From assembly GCA_916610825.1 (NCBI GenBank), contig OU744448.1, positions 23,663,032-23,727,031 on the forward strand: DNA of 64,000 bases, read 5' to 3'. The position numbers were made by a program, and so were the translations under genes. Under the pieces are notes generated by a model. The model saw only the letters and a list, made by a program, of their open reading frames with translations. It did no database searches and was not told the origin of the DNA. Positions 1 to 64,000 of the stretch are shown here, piece after piece. Position 1 is the first letter of the stretch. Every line of letters starts with the position of its first letter. The stretch is from Haliclystus octoradiatus (Eukaryota; Cnidaria; Staurozoa; Stauromedusae; Haliclystidae).

Positions 1-3000
1 TAAATTTTCAGTAACGTTGCATACAAATGTAGGATCAATATCGGGCTCCGTTGGTAGAACAAACTGAATGGATTTCGGTGAAGAAATAATTTTAGCAGGA
101 GCAGAAACAATAACATTGGTACCATTAGATTCACCCCAACCAATAACCGTTCTTGCATCACAACTGTATACTCCACCAGACATTTCAGTAGTTTTTATAT
201 TCAGTTGGCTTGAATTTGATACTAAAATTACTTTTCGATGAAGTTTCCAACGGTAAACAACGCTTGGCAAATCGGAAATAACCTTACAATCTAGATCCAA
301 TGCTTTACCAGCTATCAGTGTGATACTTTCAGTTTTATCAATGGAAACCTTTGGTGGCTTAGAGCAATGAAGACTTTGTTGCATTGTTGTGTTAAGCGAT
401 GACTGGAAGCTGTTAATATCTGAAGATATTTGATTGAAGGTTGTAAAGCTTTCTGGTGTAAGCAAGCTAAGAATTTTTGATTCGGTTTCATTTACATGTG
501 TTAAATACGTACCACGGTCTACTTTTAATATTGAAGGTAAATTTCTCAACGAATCAAATGCAACCTCAATGCAATCTTGAAGATCAAGACAGAATGTATA
601 ATTATTAGCAACTGTATATATTTCTGCGTTCTGAAGCCATTCCGATATAACAGTTGATGGCTTGCTTTCATTTACTAGGATTGACATGGATGATATCACT
701 GAGTTCATCAATGAAGATTCAGCATTTAGTATTAGTATTGTATCATTGTTTTTTGTTGTATTATATGAAGATGCTTTGAATGGTAAAGAGTTTTGTGATT
801 TCTCAATCATATCCGCAAACATGTTAGCTTGTGTTGCTAACTCATCTAACTCCGTGCCAAGACCTTTCAAGAAGCTTTCTACTTTCTTCAATGTAACACA
901 GCTTTGTTGTACAACTGTAGTATTTAAACCTTCATCGATATACCAAGAGGTAAATATCGTTTCAGCATTAGTTTTGCCCTCCAAAGACCGGCGGTTTCGA
1001 GATGAAGAACATAATACATTTGAAATTATTTCCTTTCCAAATCCAATCAACGATAGCTCTATGTCTTGTAAATCCATTCTCAGTGGAATCGATACACTAT
1101 TTCCAGTGGCTTTGTTTTTCACTTCAGCTTGCATTGAAACTCCATCTGCAACTGGAAAGGATGTTTTGAATACAAGTTCCATAATTGTCAGATGTGTTTT
1201 GATGTCTTCGGATGTTTTGAAATGTGACAAGACACATCGCTGTAATGGGATGTATGAAATAAGATTTGTATAAGTGTCATTTGCTAGCTTGGACTCTTGA
1301 GCTTTTGTCTTCAGTGCAATTATGGCTAACTCGAGGGATTTTTTATCAAATTTAGTTTGACTCTCCCATTGGACCATAGCTACTCTGGATACTCTGACGT
1401 TGTCTATTAATTGCTGAGCTTTGTCAAAGATTTCCGAATATGCTTTAGGAACCTTGGACCAACCTTTTAGGAATATAGCTCGTTGCTTCAGACATGCTGT
1501 ATTTTCAATGACACATGCTGGCTCAGTGACTTTAGAAACACAAGGGTTTGTTTTACAATTACATCGTTTTGGGCTAGAGTAATCCGTTAGGACTTCTTTC
1601 TTAACATTGAAGCATTCAGAGACAGTCCTCTCTATGGTTACAATATTAACTTTAGTCAACGTGCATGGTTCGTACACAACAAATGTTTTCGTATAGACTT
1701 CATAGGATTTATGGCATGAGGAAAAGAGACTTCCAAGAAAGCCTACAATTGCGCCAATAACAGAGCCAAGTGCTGTCCCTAACACAGGAATTATTGATCC
1801 AACAGCTGCTCCAACGGCTGATCCAGTTGCAACAAGATTCCGTTGCAATTGAGCATCTCTTTGTGCTGCCATTCCTGGATCTTCAGGGCATGTACCAGTG
1901 TAGACAGGAATAAAAACATACTTTGTCAATGCACATGATGAAGTATACGTTCCCAATTGACTAGTCCTGATTTTCTCAACAACAGGTGTACATTTTAGAG
2001 TATCAACATCAGCTTTAATTGGGTCTTGACATACTTCACACTCGGGCATGCTAACACATCTTTTTGGACATATTTTCAATAGGCATACAATATCAAGAGA
2101 CTTTTTGATAAAAGTATCAGAAACTGATGTAACATATGACTGCAGTGTTTTCAGAAAGACATCAAAAGACATTAACTGGCGACGATAATCATTTGTTGCT
2201 GCACGCAATGAGGATGTAGACTGTAAGAGACGTTGACGTTTCTCATCTACGGTATCACTTTTTATCACAACGTCATCTGATTTTTTCAGAACCCTTGCCA
2301 TTGTAGTGGCAAGACGAGATCTAGTTTTTCCACCAGTCGCTTTGAACCAGTCTTGAGCATTTTTAGTGAGTGTCTTGACTGCTTCAGAGTTACTACTTTC
2401 AATACCATCAATGTTTCTCACTAAATCTTTCCAGTTAGCTTCAGAGACTTTAATTTTATTCTTTGCTGTAAACAGTAAGTTACCAAGTCTTACGCCTGCT
2501 GCTTCCAACGAGATAAATTGTTCATTTAGACTGATATTGGCTTTGTATGATTGGCCAAAAAATTGAACAGTTGATTCAAAATTCAAGTTAAAGGTAGGAG
2601 CTGTTTTATCAATTGTTAAAGTTATGCGAGTACTCTCATCCACAATTAATTCTTCGTTAAGCATTAGCTTTCCTTTCGGCTTAATCAAAACCGTTAATTT
2701 TGATGATTTGATATCTGCTCTATCACGATTCTGACAAGACCCACAAGATTTATCAAACGCTTTTTCAACATCATAGATAGTGACATCTGAATTTTTGATG
2801 CAGAGCTGATGAAAACACACTGATCCAGAGTAAGAAACAACAGCTCCATTAGAGTTATCTTGAAGTTTTGAGGTTGATGGCTGGACGATAAATTGAGATA
2901 CTTGCTCCAATCGTTTTTGTAGAAAATTCAGTTTATCTTTAATAGCCCTTGCTTGAGGATACGAGCCAAGCCTTGATGAAAAGTATTTAACACTTGTAAG

Positions 3001-3410
3001 GACATCCAATGCTGATGATTTCAATTCGATAAGCTTTTCATAAATATCTGTGTAAATTGGGATAGGTATTGATAATGCTGTTTTGACTGTAGAAATCTTC
3101 TCAACTAATAATTTCGCGTATGCTGATAATATTCGATAATCTTCGGCATATGCCAAAGGTAAATTTGCTTTCAATCCAATGATCAAATTTTCAACATTTT
3201 CGAGAGAACGAATACGTAATAGCAGTGAAGCACTGTTAGACACATTGGAAATTGACCCACCAGTAATGTCGTACGGTAGAGAAATATGCATTTGGGAAGA
3301 AGAGGGTATGAACCTCACTGCTGAACTTGAATATATGAACTTAGCTCGACTGTCCTTCATTGTGATGTGAATACCACGGTTTAGGCAGAAGGGACATGTT
3401 GATGGTACGC
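1..3410 (-). CDS. Large 3' exon of the EMI/EGF/sushi gene: unassigned region, glycine zipper and Ig-like domains
   Basis: The minus strand is open from an acceptor (ttttag at 3411-3416) to the window edge, 1,136 codons without a stop, entered in phase 1 from the exon at 4180-4321. The first two thirds are helical and cysteine-poor and match no family I recognise. Near 1860-2040 is a Cys-rich stretch, then a hydrophobic glycine-zipper segment at about 1717-1839 (GTALGSVIGAIVGFLG and flanks), then more Cys pairs. From about 360 down to 91 the protein reads as an Ig-like domain, with first Cys in LDLDCKV, Trp in YRWKL and second Cys in GGVYSCDA. A second Ig-like domain starts near 96 and is cut by the window. 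The exon is certain as coding sequence. Function is inferred only from context (secreted or surface protein). Confidence 0.88.
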
Positions 3411-5189: not shown

Positions 5190-6526
5190 CTTATCAATAT
5201 CTTTGCCTTCAGCCATAATATCCCCTTCGAACATGACTTCAGATGATTTGTTAATTTTCAATGATCCTTTCATAATGACGTTCGCATGGAGGCAGGTTTC
5301 AGACGTATGTGGATGTACAATCGATAAGCAATATTTTGGTCCTGATTTGTGCACAGTAAATGCTTTGATATTTAAATCTACACCAGTTAATCCTAAATCA
5401 ATTAGATCATTGCTGATGCTTAATGTTCTTTCTGCAGGCATCTCTAATGAAGCACTGTATCCACATGCATCAATTGCGACACAGAAGGCGTCGTTACTAT
5501 CGATATGTGCACTTGACGAGAGAATATTTAAATTGGCGTCAGTTTTTGGTCTGTAAAGGCCATACATATTGCCAGGATAGAAATTAATGGCAGGACAAAG
5601 TTTTCTATCATTCAATTGACTGCCTATACCATAAACAGCCTTCAAATTTTCAGCATTAAAGCTATTTGAGGATAGAGTCGAAGAGAGCTGGACACCTTTG
5701 GGCATTTTTGAATTAAATAGATCAAAATATGTTCGCATAAACAAGTTACCAGACGTAATGTAATCTACTGAATCCATATTCATTTGGTGACCCTTGCAAG
5801 AAGATGATTTAGGACACGATGGAACTCTGCTACTTTTGAGATACTCAAGCGTTTCACGGATTGGATCGACAATTTCTCGCTTGTATATTGCATCAACTGT
5901 CGATGATCTCAGGCCAGTAACTGACAAAGGCAACCGTTGTGAATTATATCGTACTGCGACGAATCCAGAAGTGTCAGGATTCCATGTGCACGTTGATATG
6001 AAATCCAAAGGTCCACTGCTTGGTCCAGCACATCGACCAGCGTAGCGAGTCTTACAAGCAGAAGATAGAAAATCTGTATCAATCATCACAGGTTTTGTAT
6101 TCGGGCGCAAAACTCGTGAATATAAAACGTCAGATGATGGTTCTTCGAAGGATCTAGCATCCAATCCAGTCAAGATGTACTTAATATTTGATGATCCAGC
6201 TTTTTTTGTTTTAACTTTAAATACTGCCTCATTGTCAGGATGTCTAATTGTTACAGTTGAAGGATCGAATGCAATTGTTTTGTCATCAGATGCAAAAGAA
6301 ATCATTACATAGTTTTCAGGTCGTGCTCTGAGTATCAACTCTACTGAAAATGTATTTACTTTCAATAATGGCAATGTTGGTGTCTCCAGAATACCGATGT
6401 GACATCGTTCCCCTCTGTAAAGGGTTGTTTCACAGTTGCAAGTGAATACATTGGCATTGTTTGAAGAATCACTCTCTTGACAATAACCACCATGCAGGCA
6501 AGGATTAGGATTACAAGCTGTGTTTG
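5190..6526 (-). CDS. Exon encoding an EGF domain followed by a large unassigned extracellular region
   Basis: 1,337-bp exon with acceptor (gtttcag) just above 6526 and donor (gttagt) just below 5190, entering in phase 1 and leaving in phase 0. Residues 1 to about 45 form an EGF with six cysteines (NPCLHGGYCQ, then FTCNCE, then GERCHIG), without the calcium-binding start seen in the upstream EGFs. The remaining 400 residues contain about ten further cysteines (around SACKTRYAGRCAG, STCTWN, PSCPKSSSCKG, KLCPAIN and CVAIDACGYS). They look like a globular beta-rich ectodomain that I do not recognise. The same frame gives a 463-codon reading that begins upstream at an in-frame ATG lying in the intron, so that ATG is not the start. 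It follows the two sushi exons and precedes the exon at 4180. Confidence 0.9.
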
Positions 6527-18597: not shown

Positions 18598-18741
18598 CTT
18601 CACATATTCGATCTCCTGAAGCTAAGGAATAACCATTGTTACACGTACAAGAAAAGCTTCCTGCAGAATTTGTGCATGTGGCACGACACGTAGAGCTTTG
18701 AGTTGCGCATTTACAAGGAGTAACATCACATTCATTGATAT
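18598..18741 (-). CDS. Calcium-binding EGF exon 2, with two extra cysteines
   Basis: 144-bp phase 1-1 exon with acceptor (tcattag) above 18741 and donor (gtaatt) below 18598. It reads DINECDVTPCKCATQSSTC, RATCTNSAGSFSC, TCNNGYSLASGDRIC. There are eight cysteines instead of six: the segment between Cys1 and Cys3 of the normal module is lengthened and carries an additional Cys pair (CKC, then STC). The extra pair may form a disulfide inside the loop. The calcium-binding and hydroxylation patterns are intact. Confidence 0.92.
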
Positions 18742-19064
18742 CTAATGAAAAACATCGAACAATCTTATTAAAAATTGGTTAGATGTCTCATAAGTGATTA
18801 ATTGGGAGCAACTGCAGGTAAATATTTATGAAAAAGCATTTAAAAAATTTTCACTGTAACAAGAATACAATTCATATAGCTAATGTGTACAAGTTTATAT
18901 ATTCATTCTTGATTCAAGAAACTTAAAAATCAGAGATTTCCAATTTAATAGTAAAATCAGGAATTGCTTCTGAAATACTCTCAAATCAGTCACTAGTTTA
19001 ATTCCTTGCACAAATCCTCGAAATGTATAGTTTAATATTGCCGTATTACCATTGTTGCTATTAC
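18742..19064. other. Intron, nothing recognised
   Basis: 323-bp intron between EGF exon 2 and the mucin-repeat exon. Confidence 0.6.
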
Positions 19065-21647
19065 CTATGCATTCTTCGTGTGTTGTTACATTGAATGTAG
19101 TTGGATGTGTTGCTATATTGGATGTAGCTGGATATGTTGTTACATCGGATGTAGTTGGATGTGTTGTTGCATTGGATGTAGTTGAATATGTTGCTACATC
19201 GGATGTAGTTGGATGTGTTGTTACATTGGATATAGTTGGATATGTTGCTACATCGGATATGGTTGGATGTGTTGTTAGATTGGATGTAGTTGGATATGTT
19301 GCTACATTGGATGAAGTTGGATATGTTGTTACATTGGATGTAGTTGGATATGTTGCTACATTGGATGAAGTTGGATATGTTGTTACATTGGATGTAGTTG
19401 GATATGTTGTTACATCGGATGTAGTAGGATATGTTGTTACATTGGATGAAGTTGGATATGTTGTTACATTGGATGAAGTTGGATATGTTGTTACATTGGA
19501 TGTAGTTGGATATGTTGCTACATCGGATATGGTTGGATGTGTTGTTAGATTGGATGTAGTTGGATGTGTTGTTACATTGGATGAAGTTGGATATGTTGTT
19601 ACATCGGATGTAGTAGGATATGTTGTTACATCGGATGTAGTTGGATGTGTTGTTGCATTGGATGTAGTTGGATATGTTGTTACATCGGATGTAGTTGGAT
19701 GTGTTGTTATATTGGATGTAGTTGGATATATTGCTAAATTGGATGTAGTTGGATATGTTGTTACATCGGATGTAGTAGGATATGTTGCTACATTGGATGA
19801 AGTTGGATATGTTGTTACATCGGATGTAGTTGGATATGTTGTTACATCGGATGTAGTAGGATATGTTGCTACATTGGATGAAGTTGGATATGTTGTTGCA
19901 TCGGATGTAGTTGGATATGTTGCTACATTGGATGAAGTTGGATATGTTGTTACATCGGATGTAGTTGGATGTGTTGTTACATTGGATATAGTTGGATATG
20001 TTGCTACATCGGATATGGTTGGATGTGTTGTTAGATTGGATGTAGTTGGATATGTTGCTACATTGGATGAAGTTGGATATGTTGTTACATTGGATGTAGT
20101 TGGATATGTTGCTACATTGGATGAAGTTGGATATGTTGTTACATTGGATGTAGTTGGATATGTTGTTACATTGGATGTAGTTGGATATGTTGTTACATTG
20201 GATGAAGTTGGATATGTTGTTACATTGGATGAAGTTGGATATGTTGTTACATTGGATGAAGTTGGATATGTTGTTACATTGGATGTAGTTGGATATGTTG
20301 CTACATCGGATATGGTTGGATGTGTTGTTAGATTGGATGTAGTTGGATGTGTTGTTACATTGGATGAAGTTGGATATGTTGTTACATCGGATGTAGTAGG
20401 ATATGTTGCTACATTGGATGAAGTTGGATATGTTGTTGCATCGGATGTAGTTGGATATGTTGCTACATTGGATGAAGTTGGATATGTTGTTACATCGGAT
20501 GTAGTTGGATGTGTTGTTACATTGGATATAGTTGGATATGTTGCTACATCGGATATGGTTGGATGTGTTGTTAGATTGGATGTAGTTGGATATGTTGCTA
20601 CATTGGATGAAGTTGGATATGTTGTTACATTGGATGTAGTTGGATATGTTGCTACATTGGATGAAGTTGGATATGTTGTTAGATTGGATGTAGTTGGATA
20701 TGTTGCTACATTGGATGAAGTTGGATATGTTGTTACATTGGATGTAGTTGGATATGTTGCTACATTGGATGAAGTTGGATATGTTGTTACATTGGATATA
20801 GTTGGATATGTTGCTACATCGGATATGGTTGGATGTGTTGTTAGATTGGATGTAGTTGGATGTGTTGTTACATTGGATGAAGTTGGATATGTTGTTACAT
20901 TGGATGAAGTTGGATATGTTGTTACATTGGATGTAGTTGGATATGTTGCTACATCGGATATGGTTGGATGTGTTGTTAGATTGGATGTAGTTGGATATGT
21001 TGCTACATTGGATGAAGTTGGATATGTTGTTACATTGGATGAAGTTGGATATGTTGCTACATCGGATATGGTTGGATGTGTTGTTAGATTGGATGTAGTT
21101 GGATGTGTTGTTACATTGGATGAAGTTGGATATGTTGTTACATTGGATGAAGTTGGATATGTTGTTACATTGGATGTAGTTGGATATGTTGCTACATCGG
21201 ATATGGTTGGATGTGTTGTTAGATTGGATGTAGTTGGATATGTTGCTACATTGGATGAAGTTGGATATGTTGTTACATTGGATGTAGTTGGATATGTTGC
21301 TACATTGGATGAAGTTGGATATGTTGTTACATTGGATGTAGTTGGATATGTTGTTACATTGGATGTAGTTGGATATGTTGTTACATTGGATGAAGTTGGA
21401 TATGTTGTTACATTGGATGAAGTTGGATATGTTGTTACATTGGATGTAGTTGGATATGTTGCTACATCGGATATGGTTGGATGTGTTGTTAGATTGGATG
21501 TAGTTGGACCTGTTGCTACATTGGATGTAGCTGGATGTGTCGTTATATTTGATGTCTTCTTGTACCCAATGCTGCACCCACATGAATATGTGCCTGGTAG
21601 ATTTGTACAAACTTGTTGACAAGGCTTACTAGCACATTCATCAATAT
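19065..21647 (-). CDS. Calcium-binding EGF exon 1 with about 90 Thr/Ser/Pro (mucin-like) repeats inserted before Cys6
   Basis: A single 2,583-bp phase 1-1 exon, with acceptor (atttcag) above 21647 and donor (gtaata) below 19065. Its first residues are DIDECASKPCQQVC, TNLPGTYSCGC, SIGYKKTSN, which supply Cys1-Cys5 of a calcium-binding EGF with a hydroxylation consensus. The frame then runs without a stop through about 90 nine-residue units, consensus TSNVTTYPT, with variants such as SSNVATYPT, TSDVTTYPT and TSNLTTHPT. It ends HEEC plus the usual phase-1 splice after Cys6. The repeat is therefore inside the Cys5-Cys6 loop. Thr/Ser/Pro density suggests O-glycosylation, and N-V-T or N-L-T makes many units N-glycosylation sequons. 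Two other frames are also open through the array but are not continuous with the EGF and lack the mucin composition. Confidence 0.92.
19085..21535. repeat. Tandem repeat, 27-bp unit, about 90 copies
   Basis: The unit on the plus strand is a variant of gttggatatgttgttaca plus ttggatgta. Variation is concentrated at a few positions (gtagtt/gaagtt, ttacat/ctacat, ttggat/tcggat, atatg/atgtg). A higher-order period is visible: at least 280 bp from 19861 are identical to those from 20401, a shift of 540 bp or exactly 20 units. This is the sign of recent unequal exchange. All changes keep the 27-bp length, so the coding frame is preserved. Confidence 0.97.
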
Positions 21648-28420: not shown

Positions 28421-31400
28421 TTTGTTTGTTTGTTAACTTTAATTTGTATCGAGAAATGACAGGTAGGCGCACTAACGGCACCTGTTTTACACTGCATTCG
28501 ATTTACATAACTATGGTATAATAAATTTAATATATCTATATGAAATAACGATTTTTTAACAAATAAGAATTAAAAAAAAAAAAAAAATTAAAAAATAATT
28601 AATAAGAAAACCGGTTAAAAAATGATTTTAATACAAATATATCTATTTAAAGGGTGCTTATAAAATGGTTTCTAACGTTGCTATAAAATGAAGTCTTACT
28701 GATTTTAATAGATCTAACATCACTAGGTAAATTGTTCCAGACCTTTGATCCATAAAAAGAAAATGCAGCTTGTCCATAATTAGTTTTGCGTAGTGGTAGT
28801 GTTAGCAGATTTTGCTTCTTTCCTTTGGTAGAATTTTCAGTTGGATTTATTTTTGTATTTAAATATTCTCCAGTTTCTTTCTGCAGGCATTTATAAATTA
28901 AGCAGCAAAGTTCCAAATCTATTTGTTGTTGGACTGGTAACCAGCCCATACTTAAAACTAAGTCATTAAAATTAATAATACTATTTTTACCATAAACTAA
29001 TCGACCTGCTCGTGCCATTAAACGATTTATTCGTTGTTTTTGTGCGTCATTAGTTAGAGGTCCCCATGCTGGCAAACAGTATATTATGTGTGGCCAAAAG
29101 TATGTTTTCAATAACATCTTTGTTATATTAGGTGTTATATATTTACTAGCATTTTGTATAAAAAACAGGGCAGTAGATAACTTGTGGCATTGATTATTTA
29201 CGCATTGCTCAACATTGTTAATTCTCGATGTTAATTTGATTCCTAATAGTTTTATACTTGTTGATTGATTGATGCCTTGATCTTTGATTATTAATGAGAT
29301 GGGAGTTGGCTGCTTACGATGAGTGGTAGTTGCTAGCATAACATTTGTTTTATTGGCATTGAGCTGCATTCTATTTTCATGACACCAGATTGATGCAGCA
29401 TCTAGACAGTTCTGTAATTTTTCTTCTATAATAGATGTAGACTTATCAGCTAAATATAAAGTAGTGTCATCTGCGTACATATGACAATGACACGAGTGTG
29501 GTAGACAATCAGGTAGGTCGTTGATTAAACAGCAAAATAATAAGGGTCCAAGAACTGACCCCTGTGGTACACCAGCTGCGATTGGCATTGAATCAGATAA
29601 TTCGCCATCAAAATAAACTCGTTGATTGCGTCCAGACAAATATGATTTAAACCATTCAATTGGAACTCCGTATGACTCTAATTTAGTTAAAAGTAACTCA
29701 TGGTGTACTTTATCAAAAGCTTTGGCAAAATCCAGTAATACTATCCCTTCGTACAGACCACGATCTAGATCTACGAGCCAATCGTCGAGCATACTAGTGA
29801 GACAAGTACATGTTGAATGCTGCTGGCGAAAACCACTTTGCCATTTAGATAAAATGTTATTATTTTGCAAGTGTTCATATAAATATATGGAAAAGTGTCT
29901 TTCCAAAATTTTACTGATTATCGGTAATACAGAAATAGGCCTGTAATTTGTTGTGAGCCTTTTGTCACCTTTTTTAAACAATGCCGAAATCTTTGCAGAC
30001 TTGAAAGATAGGGGATAACATTTCGAGCAAATAGAAATGTTGAATATTTCAGTAAGTGGGCGTGATATGATTGGTGCTGCTAGCTTCAGTGCTTTTCCAC
30101 TGATACCATCAAGGCCAACTGCCTTATGTTCTTTTAGTTTTATTAGCTGTTCATAAGTCCATTCAATAGTTACAAGAGGTATTGTAAGGTTTAAATCATC
30201 AGATAAAAGACATTCTCGTTGCTCAATGGGCGGGCCATCAATTGGTGTGCACGTCTTCGAAAAATGAGCATTGAATTCGTTTGCAATCTCCTTTTTATCG
30301 ATAACTAATTTATCTCTAACCAATAATTCTGTTGGCTTTACATTTATTGTTTGTGGCAAAAATCGTTTAATCTCTTTCCAGGCAGAACGAGGAGAATTTC
30401 TTAAAGATTGAGTTATTAATTTTGTATAATATGAAGCTTTTGCATATTTAACTAATTTTTTCACATGGTTTCTAGTTTTACGAAAGCTATTATGATCCAA
30501 GCTTGATTGTCTTTTTCTAAATTTTTTATAATTGTAATCTCTTTCGTGAATTGCTTCAATTATGTCGCCATTTATCCACGGTGCAGTCATTTTTCGAAAG
30601 CGTTTAGAACGTATTGGCGCATGCTTGTTGAGGATAGTTATAAAAGTATCTGTGAATGATTGTAGGCATGCATCTACGTTACCAGCATAGGGTGACTGCC
30701 CTATAGACGATTCTGATAAATCCTTGCAAAACTGTTCAGGGTCAAGCTTTCTATAGCTGCGATATTTGACCCAACTTGATGAATTGTACTTTGAGGTTTC
30801 ACGATAATTACGGCGTACTGTATAAATCAAGTCATGATCACTCAAGCAAGAAGGAATTACGCCACTTTGTTGAAAATGTTTTGGCTCGTTTACATAAATA
30901 TGATCAATTAATGTTTGACTGCTTTTGTTAGTCTTATTATTGAATGCCAATCTAGTAGGATCTTTTATGAGTTGTTTGAAATTCATATCATTTATTAAAA
31001 AAGAAACTTTCTTTTTATCAGTACGATCGTTCAAATTAATATTAAAGTCTCTACAAATTAATGTTTCTACGCTGGACGATGTAGCAGTTGAGATGCAATC
31101 AGCCAATATATTAATGTCAGCATCAGGTGGGCGATAACATATGCCAATCAATCGTGGTTTTGCAGACTTGAAAATTAATTCTATCCATAATAGTTCAGAA
31201 ATCTCACTTTGTAAAATGTTTAAATCGTCTCTTACTTTTACTTCAATCCTCGAAGAAATATAAACTGCAATCCCACCACCTTTTCTGCCATCATTTCGAT
31301 CTTTGCGGTACAATGTATATCCAGGTATATCTAATAATGAAGAATCCATTTTTGGAGACAACCATGTTTCTGTTATAGCAAATATATCCACTTTCGACAT

Positions 31401-32015
31401 ATGCAGAGCTAGTGATATTTCAGATTGTTTAAAATCACTGTTTAGACCTTGAATGTTCAAATGGCAGGTAACAAATCCTCGCGGAAGATTATTAAGATGT
31501 TCTTTTGAAGGTGTTAAGCTAGATAATCCATTCAATTTCTCACCCATTCTATTTTTCGAATTGGAAATTCGAATTCGAAACAATAGAACGCCAAAGATAA
31601 AAAATGTTCTGAGATTTCAAATGTTCAAGAAAAATTCTAATTTTTAACAAAAATAATAGTTATAATCTCCAATATTTATAACCAATAATAAATCTTTTAT
31701 AAATTTTAGACCAGTATTTCCAATACAACCATTTAAGGATAAGGATGACAGTCATATAACAAGTAATTCCAAATCGGTAAAGTGTTGAAAATGCTTTATT
31801 ACTTGGATGACTCAAAGTGGTTACTCTTTGTCAATGAAAAGGAAGTGCAAAAAACAATATAAAATCCGTAACTTTTTCAAAATAAAAATATCTAAAACAG
31901 TTTGCAAAATAATATACTAATTGAAAATAATATATTAAAGATAGTTAATATAAAAATAAACTTGATAATAATCACTTTGGTAGGAGCTGTGTAAAACACG
32001 TCCGCACTCAATGCC
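28421..32015 (-). mobile_element. LINE A, near full-length Jockey/CR1-type non-LTR retrotransposon
   Basis: A minus-strand element of about 3.6 kb. Its 3' end is an (AAAC)n tail (tttgtttgtttg on the plus strand at 28421-28432), it has a 3' untranslated region to 28646, an intact ORF (28647-31583) and a probable 5' untranslated region to about 32015. It is inserted in LINE B. The target sequence acaaactatcg left of the insertion seems to recur in diverged form on the right (tcacctaccat), as expected for a target-site duplication. Confidence 0.8.
28647..31583 (-). CDS. LINE ORF2: endonuclease plus reverse transcriptase, 978 codons, intact
   Basis: It encodes the enzyme pair that nicks DNA and copies the element's RNA at the target site. 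Residues about 35-250 form an apurinic-type endonuclease (HLNIQGL, TETWLS, CYRPPD, DFNINL, LIDHIYV, SDHDLI). The usual Gly before DFN is Arg here (CRDFN), a possible weakening. Residues about 470-740 form the reverse transcriptase (AVGLDGISGKAL, YRPISVLPIISKILER, DFAKAFDKVHH, AAGVPQGSVLGPLLF) with catalytic MYADDT at 29463-29480. The C-terminal part carries the usual LLGIKL and HIIYCLPAWG. No stop or frameshift is present. The first Met (residue 1) precedes a basic stretch, and a later Met at residue 13 is an alternative. The clade is not settled beyond Jockey/CR1-like. Confidence 0.93.
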   Translation of the reverse strand: MFRIRISNSKNRMGEKLNGLSSLTPSKEHLNNLPRGFVTCHLNIQGLNSDFKQSEISLALHMSKVDIFAITETWLSPKMDSSLLDIPGYTLYRKDRNDGRKGGGIAVYISSRIEVKVRDDLNILQSEISELLWIELIFKSAKPRLIGICYRPPDADINILADCISTATSSSVETLICRDFNINLNDRTDKKKVSFLINDMNFKQLIKDPTRLAFNNKTNKSSQTLIDHIYVNEPKHFQQSGVIPSCLSDHDLIYTVRRNYRETSKYNSSSWVKYRSYRKLDPEQFCKDLSESSIGQSPYAGNVDACLQSFTDTFITILNKHAPIRSKRFRKMTAPWINGDIIEAIHERDYNYKKFRKRQSSLDHNSFRKTRNHVKKLVKYAKASYYTKLITQSLRNSPRSAWKEIKRFLPQTINVKPTELLVRDKLVIDKKEIANEFNAHFSKTCTPIDGPPIEQRECLLSDDLNLTIPLVTIEWTYEQLIKLKEHKAVGLDGISGKALKLAAPIISRPLTEIFNISICSKCYPLSFKSAKISALFKKGDKRLTTNYRPISVLPIISKILERHFSIYLYEHLQNNNILSKWQSGFRQQHSTCTCLTSMLDDWLVDLDRGLYEGIVLLDFAKAFDKVHHELLLTKLESYGVPIEWFKSYLSGRNQRVYFDGELSDSMPIAAGVPQGSVLGPLLFCCLINDLPDCLPHSCHCHMYADDTTLYLADKSTSIIEEKLQNCLDAASIWCHENRMQLNANKTNVMLATTTHRKQPTPISLIIKDQGINQSTSIKLLGIKLTSRINNVEQCVNNQCHKLSTALFFIQNASKYITPNITKMLLKTYFWPHIIYCLPAWGPLTNDAQKQRINRLMARAGRLVYGKNSIINFNDLVLSMGWLPVQQQIDLELCCLIYKCLQKETGEYLNTKINPTENSTKGKKQNLLTLPLRKTNYGQAAFSFYGSKVWNNLPSDVRSIKISKTSFYSNVRNHFISTL

Positions 32016-36758: not shown

Positions 36759-36851
36759 CATTTTGGCAATACTTCCCTCGAAATCCAGATCGGCATTTGC
36801 ATTGGTTTGGTTTTACACAGTCACCATTCTTGCAGGGTGGGCGACAGATTG
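36759..36851 (-). CDS. Short EGF exon immediately after EMI in the protein
   Basis: 93-bp phase 1-1 exon with acceptor (atattacag) above 36851 and donor (gtaagg) below 36759. It reads ICRPPCKNGDCVKP, then NQCKCRSGFRGKYC, with six cysteines in a compact spacing and no calcium-binding start. The segment A-I-C-R-P-P-C directly after an EMI domain is the arrangement known from EMI/EGF proteins such as the EGFL7 group. Here the first Ala codon is completed across the splice from the EMI exon, which supports joining the two although 15.5 kb separate them. Confidence 0.9.
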
Positions 36852-39747: not shown

Positions 39748-39829
39748 AAGTTAACTTTAGCGGTTGTCTGTTCGACACTGTGGATGTTTATTTGGTTTAG
39801 TTGAAACCTGTTGAATTTAATATTTAATC

Positions 39830-40765
39830 ATGGGTGAAGAAGAAACTACTCAGGAGAGGCTGTTATTCTTGCCAATTACGGCACCCAGATTAAATAGTGC
39901 TGATCGAGAAGATGTTGCTCTTTTTATGAGAAAATATCATCAGTATGAAAGTCTTGTTAGAGAAAGAACGGATAGCGGAGCGGAGAGAGTTATTCCGTTG
40001 ACGATAAAAGCATGCATCGAGCCTCTGCTTTTGAAAGCTATAGCGAAATACGAGTTGAACGTTGCACTTGAAGATTTAAGTGAAAATGCTATTAAAGATT
40101 TTTTGACAAGCAAATTGAATGTAGCTGATAATGGCAGTTTACCCGATGTTGAAGCTATATTAAAAAGGGAGTTGAAAATGGACCTTAGTATCAGGGACAG
40201 TGACGCGCGTGTGCTGAAATTATTTCGTGATGCCGATAATATTTTGGAGTTACACGGAATTGAATCTTTATTTGAAAAGGCATCGAATAAGAAACTTATG
40301 GTAGAATGTATTGTCTATGCTGTTCAACCAGCGCCATTGAGAAACACTCTGAAGTCAGAATTAAAATTACGTCATTCAGAAGCGAAAAAGGACACTGGTA
40401 AGTTGTTTGCTTTATTGAAGGATTTAGCAGCAAAGTTTGACTTATTTAATTTTGACAAAACGCCATCCAACAAAAAGGGAAATGACTCACCCACTACAGT
40501 TAAGGGAGTGGTTGTGAAAACGTCAACCAAAACCTGTTGGCATTGTAAAGGAAATCACTTAAGGTCTGATTGTCCGAATATTAAGCAAAATAACAATACT
40601 CAATCTGACACTAACACTGCTAAAAAGGGACCTCGAGATGGTTGTTTAAAATGTAAGGGAGATCATTGGTTGAACAAATGCCCTGATGCCTCTGAAGTTG
40701 AAAAAAAGGAACTTTTAAGTGCGTTTACTAAGCCTTCTACAACACGCCAGGGAACAACTTATTAA
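39830..40765 (+). CDS. gag: gag of the Ty3/gypsy element, 311 codons
   Basis: It encodes the structural nucleocapsid/capsid-like protein of the retrotransposon. The N-terminal 200 residues are helical and charged without an obvious landmark. The C-terminal part has two zinc knuckles of the C-x2-C-x4-H-x4-C type (CWHCKGNHLRSDC and CLKCKGDHWLNKC). The start ATG at 39830 lies 82 bp after the 5' LTR. The reading frame is closed by a TAA at 40763-40765, and the protease region continues in the same frame directly after it, so this stop is either a programmed gag/pol boundary or a mutation. Confidence 0.88.
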   Translation: MGEEETTQERLLFLPITAPRLNSADREDVALFMRKYHQYESLVRERTDSGAERVIPLTIKACIEPLLLKAIAKYELNVALEDLSENAIKDFLTSKLNVADNGSLPDVEAILKRELKMDLSIRDSDARVLKLFRDADNILELHGIESLFEKASNKKLMVECIVYAVQPAPLRNTLKSELKLRHSEAKKDTGKLFALLKDLAAKFDLFNFDKTPSNKKGNDSPTTVKGVVVKTSTKTCWHCKGNHLRSDCPNIKQNNNTQSDTNTAKKGPRDGCLKCKGDHWLNKCPDASEVEKKELLSAFTKPSTTRQGTTY

Positions 40766-43238
40766 AATTCAAATGTTGAAAATGTTAACGCTAAGAAAAT
40801 TGATGTTAAGGGCCAACAAAATCGAGACCAAAACGTTTTAATAAATGGTCAGATAAGTGCCAAATATGTGTTAGACACTGGAGCGGAAGAAACGTTTATC
40901 TCTGAAGAATTAGCAAATGATATTTCAAAGAATACTTCGGCTTTTTTTTGAGCCTTTATAAAAGCCGCTAAGTGTGCTGTACGCTAAGAAAGGATCTAAT
41001 ATAATTGCCGACAAAAAGATATGTGTTGATTTGGAGCTTACAACAAATGCCGGCTTATTAATTGTTAGAAAAGTTAATTGCATTATTCTAAATGATATGT
41101 TAGATGAGATTTTATTGGGAAAGCCTTTGTTGCAAACATTTGGCATTGACGTAGATGCTAAGATTGCCGCCTTAGCAACGCAACAAAGCACCGTTTCTCA
41201 AACTGAATTGAAATCAATACATTATGTTTCACCTGTTAATGATAATGAGGTGAATGATTATAATGAGACAAAGAATATTTGTATTGGTCCTAATTGCCAA
41301 GACGAGGCATTGAAAACAGTTTTAAATAATTTACCTGAAGGCTTGACCGCAAACAACAGGTCGGCCTTATCAGATCTTGTTACAAAGTACGGTGACTTAT
41401 GGAGGGTAAATTTAGGCCCGGACGAGCCAGCCCTAGTTACACCGATGACTGTAGATATACCTGATGTGGAGCCAATTAGATGTCGTCAACGTCGTTACGC
41501 ACCGAGTCATCAAGATTATCTTCATGATCATGTCAAGAAACTGGAGGCTTATGGTCTTGTTAGAAGGAACACCAAAGCAAAATGGGCGTCACCTGCGTTT
41601 GTTGCATCCTCTGGAAATGGAAAACCTCGCATGGTTGTTGACCTCCGGGCAGTAAACAATGTCACTAAGAGAACTGTTTGGCCTATGCCGAATATTGAAG
41701 TACTGCTACAACAGTTACAAGGTATGAATGTATTTGCAAGTCTAGATTTGTTTAAAGGATATTGGCAAAGTCCATTAGATGTCAGTTCACAAGAATACCA
41801 TTCTTTTATGACACATGAAGGGGTTTACACACCCACTAGAGTAATAATGGGAGCTACGGATAGTGTACAATACTTTCAGTCCATGATGCAGTCTATTATT
41901 GATGAGAGTCCCTACGCTGATTACATTTTGGTATGGGTAGATGATATACTAATATTTGCACCTGATTTTGATACATTACTGAGAGTTCTGGACTCGCTAT
42001 TTGGTTTGTTAGAAAAGTTCAAATTAAAAGTCAATGCAATGAAAAGCTGTTTGTAAAAAACGTCAATCCGTTGGTGCGGTCGCATCATATCTTCAGAAGG
42101 GATTAAATTTGATCCTTCTCGCATTGATGCGTTAATAAATTTGAGTTTACCACGCACTGCTGCACAACTGCAGCAATTTTTTTGTGCACTAAATTGGATG
42201 AGAACCAGTCTCCCTAATTTTGCTGAGCTGGTATCTCCTTTGAGAGCGCTATTGGAGAAAGCATTTACTTTATGTGGATCTCGTACTAAGAGAAGTGCAG
42301 CTACAATTTTACTAGATGACTTGGGATGGGATGAAAACGCTAGCAAGTCGTTTGAAAAATGTAAAAAGTTGTTAGAACAAGCCGTAACATTAGCTCATTT
42401 GGATTCTGAGAAGGAATTATGCTTATTTACCGATTCTAGTATTGATTTTTGGTCGATTGTTGCTACTCAAGTACCACATGGACAGTTGTCCTTACCAGTT
42501 GATCAACAAGAGCATGAACCGTTGGTGTTTATGAGTGGTAAGTTTACTGGATCTTCTTCTCGTTGGTCTATTGTTGAAAAGGAGGCGTTTCCTATTATTG
42601 AAGCAGTTGACCGCCTTGATTACCTGTTATTGTGACCACAGGGATTTCGGATTTTTACGGATCATCGTAACTTGATGTACATTTTTGATCCTTTTACCGT
42701 AAATGCTACTATTAAACGTCACGTTGCTGATCGATTACAACGCTGGGCGTTGAGTTTGATGTGTTACAATTACAGAATTGAGCATATACCTGGAGAATTA
42801 AATGTATGATCGGATTTGTTAACCCGCTGGGGAGTTGACTGTATTACAGATACTGTTACTGTAAAAGCTGTTATTTGTACGCCTGATGCTACTAAGTCTT
42901 TGTTTGAGCCAGAGACATGGCCTTCATTGGCAGAACTTGTTGACTTACACGACAATGGCACTCCTGACTCAACATTTGCGAGAGATGGCGGAGGATTGTA
43001 CCGAAATCACAACAATGCAATATGGATTCCCGAGGACCATGATATTCGCTATCGGTTATTGGTTATTGCTCATGCTGGTGCCAGTGGTCATAGACGCAGT
43101 GAAGCTATGATGTCAATACTGAAGAGCCGGTTTGCATGGAAAGGTATGAAACATGACGTATCTATGTTTTGTGAGTCTTGCTTGCATTGTTTATTGGCTG
43201 ATGGTCAGACTATTATCCCGAGACCTTTTGGTGATTAA
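40766..43238 (+). pseudogene. pol: pol of the gypsy element: protease, reverse transcriptase, RNase H, integrase N-terminus (broken)
   Basis: Order seen: an aspartic protease (DTGAEETFIS near 40875); reverse transcriptase with VDLRAVNNVT, LDLFKGYWQSPLD, MGATDSVQYF and the catalytic VWVDDIL at about 41932-41952; RNase H (LFTDSS near 42425, IFTDHRNL near 42655); and the integrase zinc-binding module (HAGASGH, then CESCLHC). Lesions visible: a frameshift at an eight-T run near 40942-40949; in-frame stops at 40959-40961, 42054-42056, 42633-42635 and about 42807-42809; and a one-base frameshift near 43236. The catalytic box is V-D-D preceded by Trp instead of the usual Tyr-x-D-D. As it stands the polyprotein cannot be made. 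Confidence 0.88.
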
Positions 43239-43261
43239 TTCATGCAGATGCACCAAACGAA

Positions 43262-44392
43262 GTGATTCATTTTGATTATCTGTTTATGAGGAAACGTGAT
43301 GAACATTGTCCATATTCTTATGCTTTGGTTCTTAAAGATGATTTCTCTGGATTTGTTGAACTGATACCAACAGCAACAGCTGATTCTCAACCAGTTGTAC
43401 ACTCCCTCATTGATTGGTTTAAAAGGTATGGAATTGTTAAAATGTGGGTATCTGATCAAGGGACTCATTTTCTGAATGCTGTAATGGAAGAATTGAGAAG
43501 ATTGATGCACGCTCAGCATCATTATGTTACGGCTTATTCGCCATGGGCAAACGGTACTGTCGAAAGAGTGAACAGAGACATATTGTTTATTGTTCGATGT
43601 ATTTTATCAGAGTTGAGATTGACTGAAACTACTTGGCCTGATGTACTACCTTTGGTCCAGTCTGCTATCAATCACAGTCCATCTCGTTACCTTGGAAACC
43701 GAGCACCTGTTACTGCTTTTACTGGGTTGCCAGCAAGTTCACCCCTTGATTGTATTTATGTACCTCGATTAGAGACATCTTTACAGCTACCAACTACTGA
43801 TGCTATTAAAGCAAAAATTGATGAATTGAAGGATTCTTTACAAGCCATGCATAGTGAGATTACTGCGTGTAAAGATAAACGTCGACAAGAAAATGCTCAG
43901 CTACGATCAAACAGTAAAGCTGTGAAACCCGTGAATTTCCGTGAAGGAGATTTTGTTTTGGCGTCACGAGTCTTAAATAAATCTGGCGGAAAATTGAGAG
44001 TAAAATGGCAAGGTCCAATGCGTATTACGGAAGTTGTGAATCCGTATGTCTACGTAGTCGAGAGTCTGATTAACGGAGAAAAAAAGACCTGCCATTCGAG
44101 TCGTCTTAAGTATTATCATGACGATTCATCAAATGTTACAGAAGAGTTAAAAGAGCAAATCGCACATGATGACATAGGATTTATTGTAGAGGAAATCTTA
44201 CGTGTAAGATTCAATGAAGACTACGATCGATGGGAATTGTATATCCAATGGCAGGGATTTGAAAGTGGAGAAAATTCATGGGAGCCATTCAGCACCCTAT
44301 GGCTTGATGTGCCAAAGTTGATTGAAAACTATATAAACAAGAGTTGCGATAACTTAAAGTTTAAAAATTATGTTAAAGGACTGCTATCATAA
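43262..44392 (+). CDS. Integrase core and C-terminal chromodomain of the gypsy element
   Basis: 376 open codons. The catalytic D, D, E of the retroviral-type integrase core are visible: HFDYLF at the start, VSDQGTHF, and NGTVERVNRDI about 35 residues on. A basic linker and an SH3-like segment (EGDFVLASRVLNKSGGK, then VKWQGPMRI) follow. The last 80 residues resemble a chromodomain (FIVEEILRVRF, WELYIQWQGF, NSWEPFSTL), which in chromoviruses directs integration to marked chromatin. The frame is one base out from the upstream part of pol, so the natural start is inside the polyprotein and not at 43262. Confidence 0.85.
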   Translation: MIHFDYLFMRKRDEHCPYSYALVLKDDFSGFVELIPTATADSQPVVHSLIDWFKRYGIVKMWVSDQGTHFLNAVMEELRRLMHAQHHYVTAYSPWANGTVERVNRDILFIVRCILSELRLTETTWPDVLPLVQSAINHSPSRYLGNRAPVTAFTGLPASSPLDCIYVPRLETSLQLPTTDAIKAKIDELKDSLQAMHSEITACKDKRRQENAQLRSNSKAVKPVNFREGDFVLASRVLNKSGGKLRVKWQGPMRITEVVNPYVYVVESLINGEKKTCHSSRLKYYHDDSSNVTEELKEQIAHDDIGFIVEEILRVRFNEDYDRWELYIQWQGFESGENSWEPFSTLWLDVPKLIENYINKSCDNLKFKNYVKGLLS

Positions 44393-52392: not shown

Positions 52393-52496
52393 CCTTTGAA
52401 CATGAATTTCCTCTAGGTACCCAACCGGAGCAACATGAAAAGCTTTTTTTATACTGAGATTGAAGGATTTTCTTGTAATAAGTAAACTTCCTTCGC
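52393..52496 (-). CDS. EMI domain, second-half exon
   Basis: 104-bp exon with acceptor (gttttcaag) above 52496 and donor (gtaagt) below 52393, entering in phase 2 and leaving in phase 1. In the frame required by the downstream EGF exon it reads RRKFTYYKKILQSQYKK, then SFSCCSGWVPRGNSCSK. The Tyr-rich strand followed by C-C-x-G-W and a last Cys is the signature of the C-terminal half of an EMI domain, a module of multimerising extracellular proteins that is normally near the N-terminus. A 78-codon open frame also covers this place but in a different frame that has no EMI pattern. The N-terminal half and the signal peptide must be on an exon further upstream that I did not find. Confidence 0.8.
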
Positions 52497-53344
52497 CTTG
52501 AAAACAAAGTAAAAACATACTTTGAATGAATGAACGAATGGACTTATTTGCGCATGACACCATCGTAAATGGAGACTACATGCAGAATAAATTAACAATA
52601 ACAAACATCTTAAATTAAAACGTTTTACGTAATTAAGAATTTGGTAAGATATTCTTTTTGGCTGCCTGACTTATAGACCCAACTGTGGTTCTATTCTAGT
52701 TCCTGTTGATGCTTTCATCGGCGAAATGGCGACGGACATCCTTCTGTGTGCTCTGGTATGAAGAGGAAGTGGAGCCATAAATCCGAACGTGCATGCTGTT
52801 TTTAAATATTCGTTTCGTCATTAAATACCATTCCATTTTTTTATTCCGTCGTTATCTGCGAAGCTATTTCGTGCGGAATCGGGATCAGTATCAGTAAGAG
52901 GATCATTACTGATCATACACTCTTCACTCATGGCTATTTGATGACTGTTGTATAAAAATGTTTGCAATTCTGAAAGTGACAGCTATATATGGATGACATA
53001 CCTCGTTCCGTAGCATCTATGAGTACAGAAACCCCAAACTTCCCTACAGCATGTGTTGAATTTTTCATAAGCATATCTTTCAGTTTTTATTACTTGATAC
53101 ACGTTGAAAGAGATATCTTTACTGCAGACATTAGCCCTGTAATTGTAATAATACCGTTAGATAGTAAACGATATCAGATGATTGTGATAAAATCTAGGAT
53201 CGTGTAAGGTTCCTCTCTCTTTCAAGTTATTTTCAACTTATGACATAACGGGATTTGTATTCTCCAATACCCATACGACACTGCTATATACTACCAACAT
53301 GCAGACATCGACATTCATGTCAAATTTATTGAATTGAGAACTAC
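52497..53344. other. Upstream intron/flank, nothing firm
   Basis: No exon that would complete the EMI domain could be recognised on the minus strand. Plus-strand open frames here are unremarkable. Confidence 0.4.
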
Positions 53345-54630: not shown

Positions 54631-54636
54631 GTACAG

Positions 54637-54806
54637 TCGCTCTGTTTTGGTTACTTCGTTTCGTAATTCAGAACGTTCGTCGCTCTGTTTTTCTACATCG
54701 TTTTGTAATTCAGAAGTTTTGTCGCTCTGTTTTGTCTACATCGTTTTGTAATTCAGAACGTTCGTAGCTCTGGTTTGTTTACATCGTTTTGTGATTCAAA
54801 ACCTAT
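54637..54806. repeat. Tandem repeat, about 43-bp unit, four copies
   Basis: Copies start with cgctctgttttg and contain acatcgttttgtaattcagaa. The last copy is diverged (agctctggtttg...gattcaaaacc). Confidence 0.85.
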
Positions 54807-63060: not shown

Positions 63061-64000
63061 TTTTTTCGTTTTTTGAATGAGACAAGTTCCATAATTATGC
63101 TAATTTTATTATATTTATGAGGAGAATACTAGTGTTTTTGATATATATAATATTATAATCTAACTATCGACAGCTGATTGACATAAACCAATAATTTATT
63201 TTCCATTCCAGGGATGTCAAATACGCAAGAGTTGACTCTTTGAATGTTCTTATTGCTTCCCCACGTATTACTTCCGGGATAAAGTTCCAGACTCTAGTAC
63301 CTACTGCTACAATCGACCATTTCATCAGGGTTGTTCTGCAAATGGGTGGGATGAGTTTGTTTGGACGGCAAGATGACGTATATTTAGTGTTGGATATCTT
63401 GAAGAGGGAGTGTAAAAGTTTTGGAGTTTCTGTTATGAGTGTTTTGTGGATCATATTGGTTAATTTTACTATTCTTCTGACGTGTAGAGATGGAAGATGA
63501 TATTCTTTACCAGTATTGGGTCGTGTTAGGTGTTTTAGTGATTTTTCTTGAATTCTTTCTAATTTTAGTCTATCCGTTTGATTAATTCCAAGAAGAAGTA
63601 GGCTACAATGTTCTAGGTGAGGACGGATGTATGTCTTGTAAAGTGTATTGGCAAGGTGTGGGTTTAGGGATTTCTTAACCTGTTTGATTTGATATAGGGA
63701 GAGATTGGCTTTTCTGATGCAATTGCGAAGATGACATCTCATGTTTAATCTACTGTCAATGTGAGCACCGAGTATCTTTATTATATTGAGCCAAGGTAAG
63801 GTTACATCATCGATTGTAATGTCTTTGTTATGTATTTGATTAGTACTTAGAAGATTTGCGCTCGTGACGTGAATGTCGGGTTCTGGAATGTGAGTGATTA
63901 GTAGGCATTGAGTTTTTGAGGGGTTCAGTTTTAGACAATTCAGCTGGAACCATTGGTGCACCTTTTCCAAGTCTTTGTTGAGGTGTTGGACAGCAGTGTT
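63060..64000 (-). mobile_element. LINE 3' part, minus strand, cut by the window edge
   Basis: The 268-codon open frame at 63164-63970 is the thumb and C-terminal region of a non-LTR reverse transcriptase (QLNCLKLNPSKTQCLLI, ILGAHIDSRLNMRCHL, YKTYIRPHLEHCSLLLLGI, VGTRVWNFIPEVIRG). The catalytic core would lie beyond 64000. A T-rich run on the plus strand at 63050-63068 may be its A-rich tail. It is open over the visible length, so the copy may be young. Confidence 0.8.

Follow-up and report, generated by a model that had tools for sequence, protein, structure and literature searches.

In a gene of Haliclystus octoradiatus, one exon encoding a calcium-binding EGF (cbEGF) domain, exon R, places 834 residues between the fifth and sixth cysteines. 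We consider it likely that exon R belongs to a large extracellular protein, that amplification within the exon took a segment of this loop from one copy to 92, and that the product would be a glycan-bearing side loop closed by Cys5 and Cys6. The exon is located in the window, i.e., the whole 64,000-nucleotide stretch of DNA analysed here (C4:23663032-23727031 of the 261.9-Mb, 33-contig genome), and the features of its gene are collected in Table 1.

Anatomy of exon R and its array

In the frame set by the acceptor TTTCAG/ATATTGATGAATGT (here and below the slash marks the splice site), exon R reads DIDEC-ASKPC-QQVC-TNLPGTYSC-GC-SIGYKK, followed by the array and HEEC-I, and ends at the donor TGC ATA G/GTAATA. 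The Cys5-Cys6 loop consists of SIGYKK (6 residues) and 92 x 9 residues of array; the final unit, TFNVTTHEE, adjoins Cys6, and with this unit counted the array is 2484 nt long, exactly 92 x 27 nt (TRF calls it at 19081-21555). The original prediction had placed Cys1-Cys5, about 90 units, HEEC and a phase-1 donor in one exon, which was correct, with exact coordinates and a unit count that comes to 92; its loop of more than 800 residues is the one counted here. The calcium consensus of cbEGF domains is D/N-x-D/N-E...N....Y, and exon R carries it in DIDEC and CTNLPGTYSC. All six cysteines are present, and Pfam EGF_CA (PF07645) matches the exon with 30.7 bits (cut-off 27) over profile positions 1-37 of 43. 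Exon R thus shares with a typical cbEGF the six cysteines, the DxDEC start and the consensus N and Y, and also the GY after Cys5, the phase 1-1 exon and the C6-x-D-x-N-E-C linker, which appears as C6-I-D-I-N-E-C when exons R and B are joined in silico.

What sets exon R apart is the length of the loop. In the 4645 cbEGF domains of the best 120 of 2358 relatives found with the spliced gene model, Cys5-Cys6 loops have 1-21 residues with a mode of 12, so that the usual length of about 10 assumed in the original prediction has to be corrected to mostly 12, and to 15 in exon R's own family. In the same genome, the window and 20 stretches chosen for their cbEGF matches, which cover part of the genome, contain 107 cbEGF-pattern matches, 106 with loops of 1-15 residues and one, exon R, with 834. 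A family search of the genome scored 150 of 431 candidates and did not return exon R itself, and would therefore miss other giant loops. A candidate for a second giant-loop cbEGF at 25.167 Mb of contig C6 (profile cut at position 31, open frame of 1358) was rejected, as it is a long exon with many ordinary EGFs and a membrane-like end, Crumbs-like by eye. No comparable EGF loop is described in the titles and abstract openings searched, a search outside which most of the subscription literature lies.

The 27-nt register is unbroken by indels across all 92 units. The 828 residues of the array include 412 Ser/Thr and 90 Pro but no Cys, Lys or Arg, and an NxS/T sequon is present in 49 units and missing from 43; being Ser/Thr-rich, containing Pro and lying in tandem, the units have the make-up of a PTS domain. 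Among the 91 full units counted there are 22 distinct types. The array contains recurring blocks of 11, 9 and 8 units, as expected from unequal exchange, and the mean pairwise difference between units is 0.108. The distinct variants comprise 4 synonymous and 14 nonsynonymous changes (23 and 56 single changes being possible, respectively), and these codon-level counts reveal no amino-acid constraint among the units. Public mucins were rejected as homologues: of 7985 candidates scored (0.55-1.75x length), four matched at E <= 0.001, two of them named mucins, and all four share Thr-rich composition by eye, without the EGF of exon R. Elsewhere in the genome, repeat tracts at C1:34777857-34778111 (48% identity over 85 residues) and C2:7455989-7463422 (28-34%, with stops) weakly match the array protein.

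Table 1. Features of the window gene (positions in the window)
Feature	Position	Strand	Remark
Probable N-terminal exon, CCSGW...C, ending CCSGWVPRGNSCSKG/GTAAGT	52393..52520	minus	5' end approximate
Exon A, EGF (EGF_2 24.0 bits, cut-off 22.1), phase 1-1	36759..36851	minus	next exon upstream of R
Exon R, cbEGF with giant Cys5-Cys6 loop	21647..19065	minus	2583 nt, phase 1-1; genome C4:23682096-23684678
EGF head of R, DIDEC...Cys5 SIGYKK	21556..21647	minus	translation and paralog comparison
Array of R, 92 in-register 27-nt units (828 aa)	19072..21555	minus	translation, unit count
End of R: Cys6 codon TGC, Ile codon ATA, phase-1 G, then donor GTAATA	19065..19071	minus	homologous to paralog
Exon B, next cbEGF	18598..18741	minus	domain scan, exon ends
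Exons C-G, five cbEGFs	17985-17860, 17320-17198, 14871-14743, 10979-10854, 9945-9823	minus	
Exons H and I, sushi domains (30.3 and 22.4 bits, cut-off 20.7)	8750-8577, 7667-7482	minus	
Exon J, EGF (21.0 bits, cut-off 21.5) and family-specific ectodomain	5190..6526	minus	3' end approximate
Exon K, family-specific ectodomain, Ig-like end by eye	1..3410	minus	gene continues past window

The gene, its paralogs and the origin of the array

A genome search with the 33-residue head of exon R found 21 places, of which ten loci (L009-L018, the window exon among them) were read. Three near paralogs (p1, p2 and p3) lie at C4 23.484, 23.537 and 23.608 Mb, with heads 82% identical to that of exon R; of the other loci read, four are copies at 32.8-33.0 Mb and two are more distant. 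The cluster (C4 23.484-23.634 Mb and the window) is made up of three near-identical plus-strand paralogs and the inverted window gene. In eight of the nine paralogous exons (L010-L017) the loop has 15 residues, namely six, with GYKK or GYRK at their end, and a single nine-residue segment; in L018 it has 12. The near paralogs read CGC-NTGYKK-TSTVPTHAG-C, with TSAVPTHAG in one of the three, and their exon ends TGC GCA G/GTAAGAGCAACGATG where that of the window ends TGC ATA G/GTAATAGCAACAATG, i.e., the paralog donor is GTAAGA and that of exon R is GTAATA. The first ~40 nt of the downstream intron are homologous to the paralog (score 31; best of 2000 shuffles 25), and past this point the R-B intron shows no alignment to it. 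Because the loop segment, the donor and the start of the intron match in this way, the single-unit state was most likely the ancestral one, and Cys6 is most likely the homologue of the relatives' Cys6. The placement of the array inside the Cys5-Cys6 loop, as originally predicted, is supported by this exon anatomy, above all by the eight paralogous exons.

The paralog segment is also the best match to the repeat unit. In register, the unit consensus agrees with the nine-codon segment of p2 and p3 at 19 of 27 nt, a value reached by 2 of 200000 shuffles, and with that of p1 at 18 (4 of 200000); for the last array unit the values are 20 (none of 200000) and 19 (1 of 200000). On the plus strand of the 10-kb paralog locus L036, the best ungapped site for the consensus is the loop segment, with 19 matches, the next site having 17. 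Since the best match is found at the same site and in the same register, the array appears to have arisen in place, by amplification of the nine codons that end the loop. The founder changes, on inspection, created an N-x-T sequon that is absent from the paralog segment. The idea that repeat DNA of foreign origin entered the loop was rejected on the same grounds, and it is also countered by the genome distribution of the 18-nt unit core (at most one mismatch), which has 71 matches, 70 of them in exon R (a reversed control pattern has 1).

Ka/Ks values against p1, p2 and p3, whose codon pairs with the window gene contain no stops, show that the EGF part of the gene is under purifying selection. 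They are 0.12, 0.12 and 0.12 for the head of exon R (32 codons; 9 synonymous and 6 nonsynonymous changes), 0.19, 0.19 and 0.21 for exons A, R and B together (109 codons), 0.26, 0.34 and 0.26 for exons C-I, 0.49, 0.41 and 0.55 for exon J, 0.27 and 0.31 for the covered part of exon K (222 and 364 codons; p1 and p2 only), and 0.31, 0.31 and 0.34 over all exons compared. The selection on the head may be older than the expansion. Ks is 0.31-0.34 in the N-terminal part and 0.05-0.06 in exons C-I, and this greater divergence of the N-terminal part suggests gene conversion in the remainder of the gene. Exons F to J are ~94% identical to p2, exons B-E and their surroundings ~85% and the sequence at the acceptor of exon R 75%, and such a mosaic is likewise suggestive of gene conversion. 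Exon A is 93.5-94.6% identical to its three paralogs, and the probable N-terminal exon 78% identical over 91 nt. The introns upstream of exon R differ in length: in p2 the A-R intron has 721 bp and that between the N-terminal exon and A less than 0.2 kb, whereas the window equivalents are both ~15 kb and both contain mobile-element ORFs, one at 28650-31616 (minus; RVT_1 and endonuclease) and one at 39821-44389 (plus; retroelement-like by eye). Another retroelement-like ORF, also judged by eye, is at 63167-64000 (minus), and a 43-bp tandem repeat of 3.9 copies is at 54636-54802.

The gene belongs to a family with distant homologues in bivalves. The 2358 matches of the spliced-model search are dominated by fibrillins, and among the best 120 of them and the four mucin-search matches only P0005, the uncharacterised Mercenaria protein LOC128552082, matched exon J in BLASTP below 1e-3; P0006, an uncharacterised 'EGF domain' protein of Mactra antiquata, was chosen by reading its architecture (EGF, cbEGFs, EGF, the shared ectodomain, Ig). 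The window gene carries the ectodomain common to these bivalve EGF/Ig proteins, in which P0005 begins. Against a profile of their matching region exons J and K score 41.2 bits (best of 500 shuffles 4.3), and local hhalign gives E 9e-7 (five shuffles 0.15-0.74, reversed sequence 0.19). Exon K alone aligns locally at E 9e-6; its global hhalign alignment to the bivalve profile did not succeed, and a protein search with it returned nothing at E <= 0.001. The bivalve proteins differ in having ordinary loops, many more cbEGFs past the Ig and then, by eye, a membrane segment, while the window gene, unlike them, has two sushi domains as well as Ephrin_rec_like and CBM_14 exons downstream on the same strand. 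The latter (L042:7394-8118, minus strand; CBM_14 is chitin-binding) are likely part of the window gene and perhaps its C-terminal end; an Ig-like piece (22.4 bits, below the cut-off of 30) is found just beyond the window in L042. Fibrillin-type TB (8-Cys) domains are absent among the cbEGFs in the exons scanned, the upstream exons being incompletely known. Exon J has 11 matches in the genome. One is the window itself, three match at 94%, four are distant copies with an open frame (25-35%), two are pieces of a single decayed copy, and the last is partial and contains stops. The decayed copy lies outside the window, at C4:23737710-23738386, and three TGA stops interrupt one of its two pieces.

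Splicing of exon R and alternative readings

An open frame alone is weak evidence for coding: the array is open in two of its other five frames. Two open frames besides that of exon R, each longer than 850 codons, cross it at 19031-21616 (plus) and 19064-21625 (minus) as a by-product of repetition. Matching exon ends are stronger evidence. Exons R and B-G all start in phase 1 with D-x-[DN]-E-C and end alike, with the Cys6 codon, one codon and G/GT, as the paralogous exons do, and the minus strand of the window has the pattern TGYNNNGGT at only 25 of its 63992 positions. Donors were scored with a matrix built from the eight other donors of the gene, each left out in turn, with general metazoan frequencies as pseudocounts; by these matrices, which are small and partly derived from such general frequencies, the exon R donor scores 1.6, the weakest of nine (the others 2.3-7.2), and the best internal donor -1.1, so that every donor inside the repeat scores lower than any assigned to the gene. 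Acceptor scores overlap (best internal -1.7, assigned -4.5 to 9.2) and do not discriminate. We infer that exon R is spliced whole; that the array is spliced out, or that Cys6 is supplied from elsewhere, seems unlikely. A missed EGF exon between A and R is also unlikely, given the short A-R intron of p2. Read from the sequence, an alternative phase-1 donor, AATG/GTAATA, lies 15 nt downstream of that of exon R; its use would lengthen the linker and retain Cys6.

The weak donor of exon R, together with internal acceptors on a par with some assigned ones, could nevertheless mean that a cryptic or facultative intron takes out all or most of the array, leaving an ordinary EGF in the mature protein. 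A pair that would keep both frame and Cys6 does exist, CAG/GTCCAA (21510) and GAAG/AATGC (19073), both in phase 1, but its scores are -8.3 and -12.6, far below those assigned, and the four repeat-borne donor types (73 copies) are in phase 0 while the two commonest acceptor types (26 copies) are in phase 1, so that they cannot be combined in frame. With the register also intact through all 92 units, we regard such removal as improbable. Less easily dismissed, though in our judgement still rather unlikely, is a neutral minisatellite that is translated and tolerated in a surface loop without a specific function. It would fit the lack of amino-acid constraint in the unit variants and the presence of the array in only one of four clustered copies, the other three of which could cover the function; it fits poorly with an array free of stops and frame shifts, with the constraint on the remainder of the gene and with the gain of the sequon in the founder unit.

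AlphaFold, run on exon R with a seven-row alignment including six cbEGFs of the window, gave a best model in which a three-residue strand appears 59 times along the array, which would be compatible with the nine-residue repeats forming a regular beta-solenoid and not a mucin-like brush. The mean pLDDT of this model is 50, however, values of 70-90 are reached by 92 of 860 residues and values of 90 or more by none, Cys6 is placed with low confidence, the other four models have means of 27-35, and regular strand patterns are a usual AlphaFold artefact for near-identical repeats; a solenoid is thus quite improbable. As to an assembly artefact, arrays are error-prone and repeats could have been collapsed or misplaced, but the array lies within a 35.9-Mb contig with correct exon sequence on both flanks, and its many distinct unit types and recurring blocks make this explanation very improbable.

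Proposed topology and its meaning

The reading that we prefer is therefore that of a cbEGF whose own loop has been expanded. In a large extracellular protein of many domains, a cbEGF close to the start would have had the last nine codons of its Cys5-Cys6 loop amplified in tandem, within the exon, by unequal exchange or slippage. With its abundance of Ser/Thr and Pro, its sequons and its lack of Cys, Lys and Arg, the array would be densely O-glycosylated, with some N-glycans, and would remain extended and unfolded. The disulfides of EGF domains are 1-3, 2-4 and 5-6, and if Cys5 and Cys6 still pair, the array would form a ring closed by one disulfide. As the expansion is confined to the loop, the EGF-EGF linker would be untouched, and the glycan loop would jut sideways from a calcium-rigid EGF rod with its C6-x-D-x-N-E-C1 linker and GY intact. 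At the extended-chain rise of 0.25 nm per residue, the 834-residue loop would extend roughly 100 nm outward before returning.

Partial parallels exist in known systems. EGF repeats of Drosophila Serrate, like exon R, hold insertions, which are tens of residues long and are not known to be tandem repeats. The insertion in the EMILIN1 gC1q domain is in a fold other than EGF and is not known to be a tandem repeat. It resembles exon R in being a disordered functional insertion in a folded extracellular domain, as named in a title that PMC13326518 cites. The MUC7 repeats are described as forming PTS domains that stand on their own, and like the array they are Thr/Ser/Pro-rich in-exon repeats with a length that is a multiple of three and a variable copy number; the unit of exon R, unlike that of MUC7 as presented there, is carved from a folded disulfide-rich domain with both ends tied to it (PMC4997351).

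On a rod in the extracellular matrix or at the cell surface, the loop would likely be a side branch that hydrates, acts as a spacer or presents ligands. More tentatively, and with somewhat less confidence than doubt, we propose that a PTS ring shut by Cys5-Cys6 of a cbEGF, standing as a side branch on a calcium-rigid rod and born of the domain itself, is functional in one of the four copies. If this is true, it would represent a new mucin topology, a glycan brush mounted sideways through one disulfide and openable by reduction. The exon itself shows that mucin-like repeats can arise from within a loop of a small disulfide-rich domain while its cysteine pattern is kept. The state before the expansion is preserved in neighbouring genes of the same genome, which makes for an unusually clear origin, and this set of paralogs makes it directly testable how and when a subexonic repeat arose and what effect it has.
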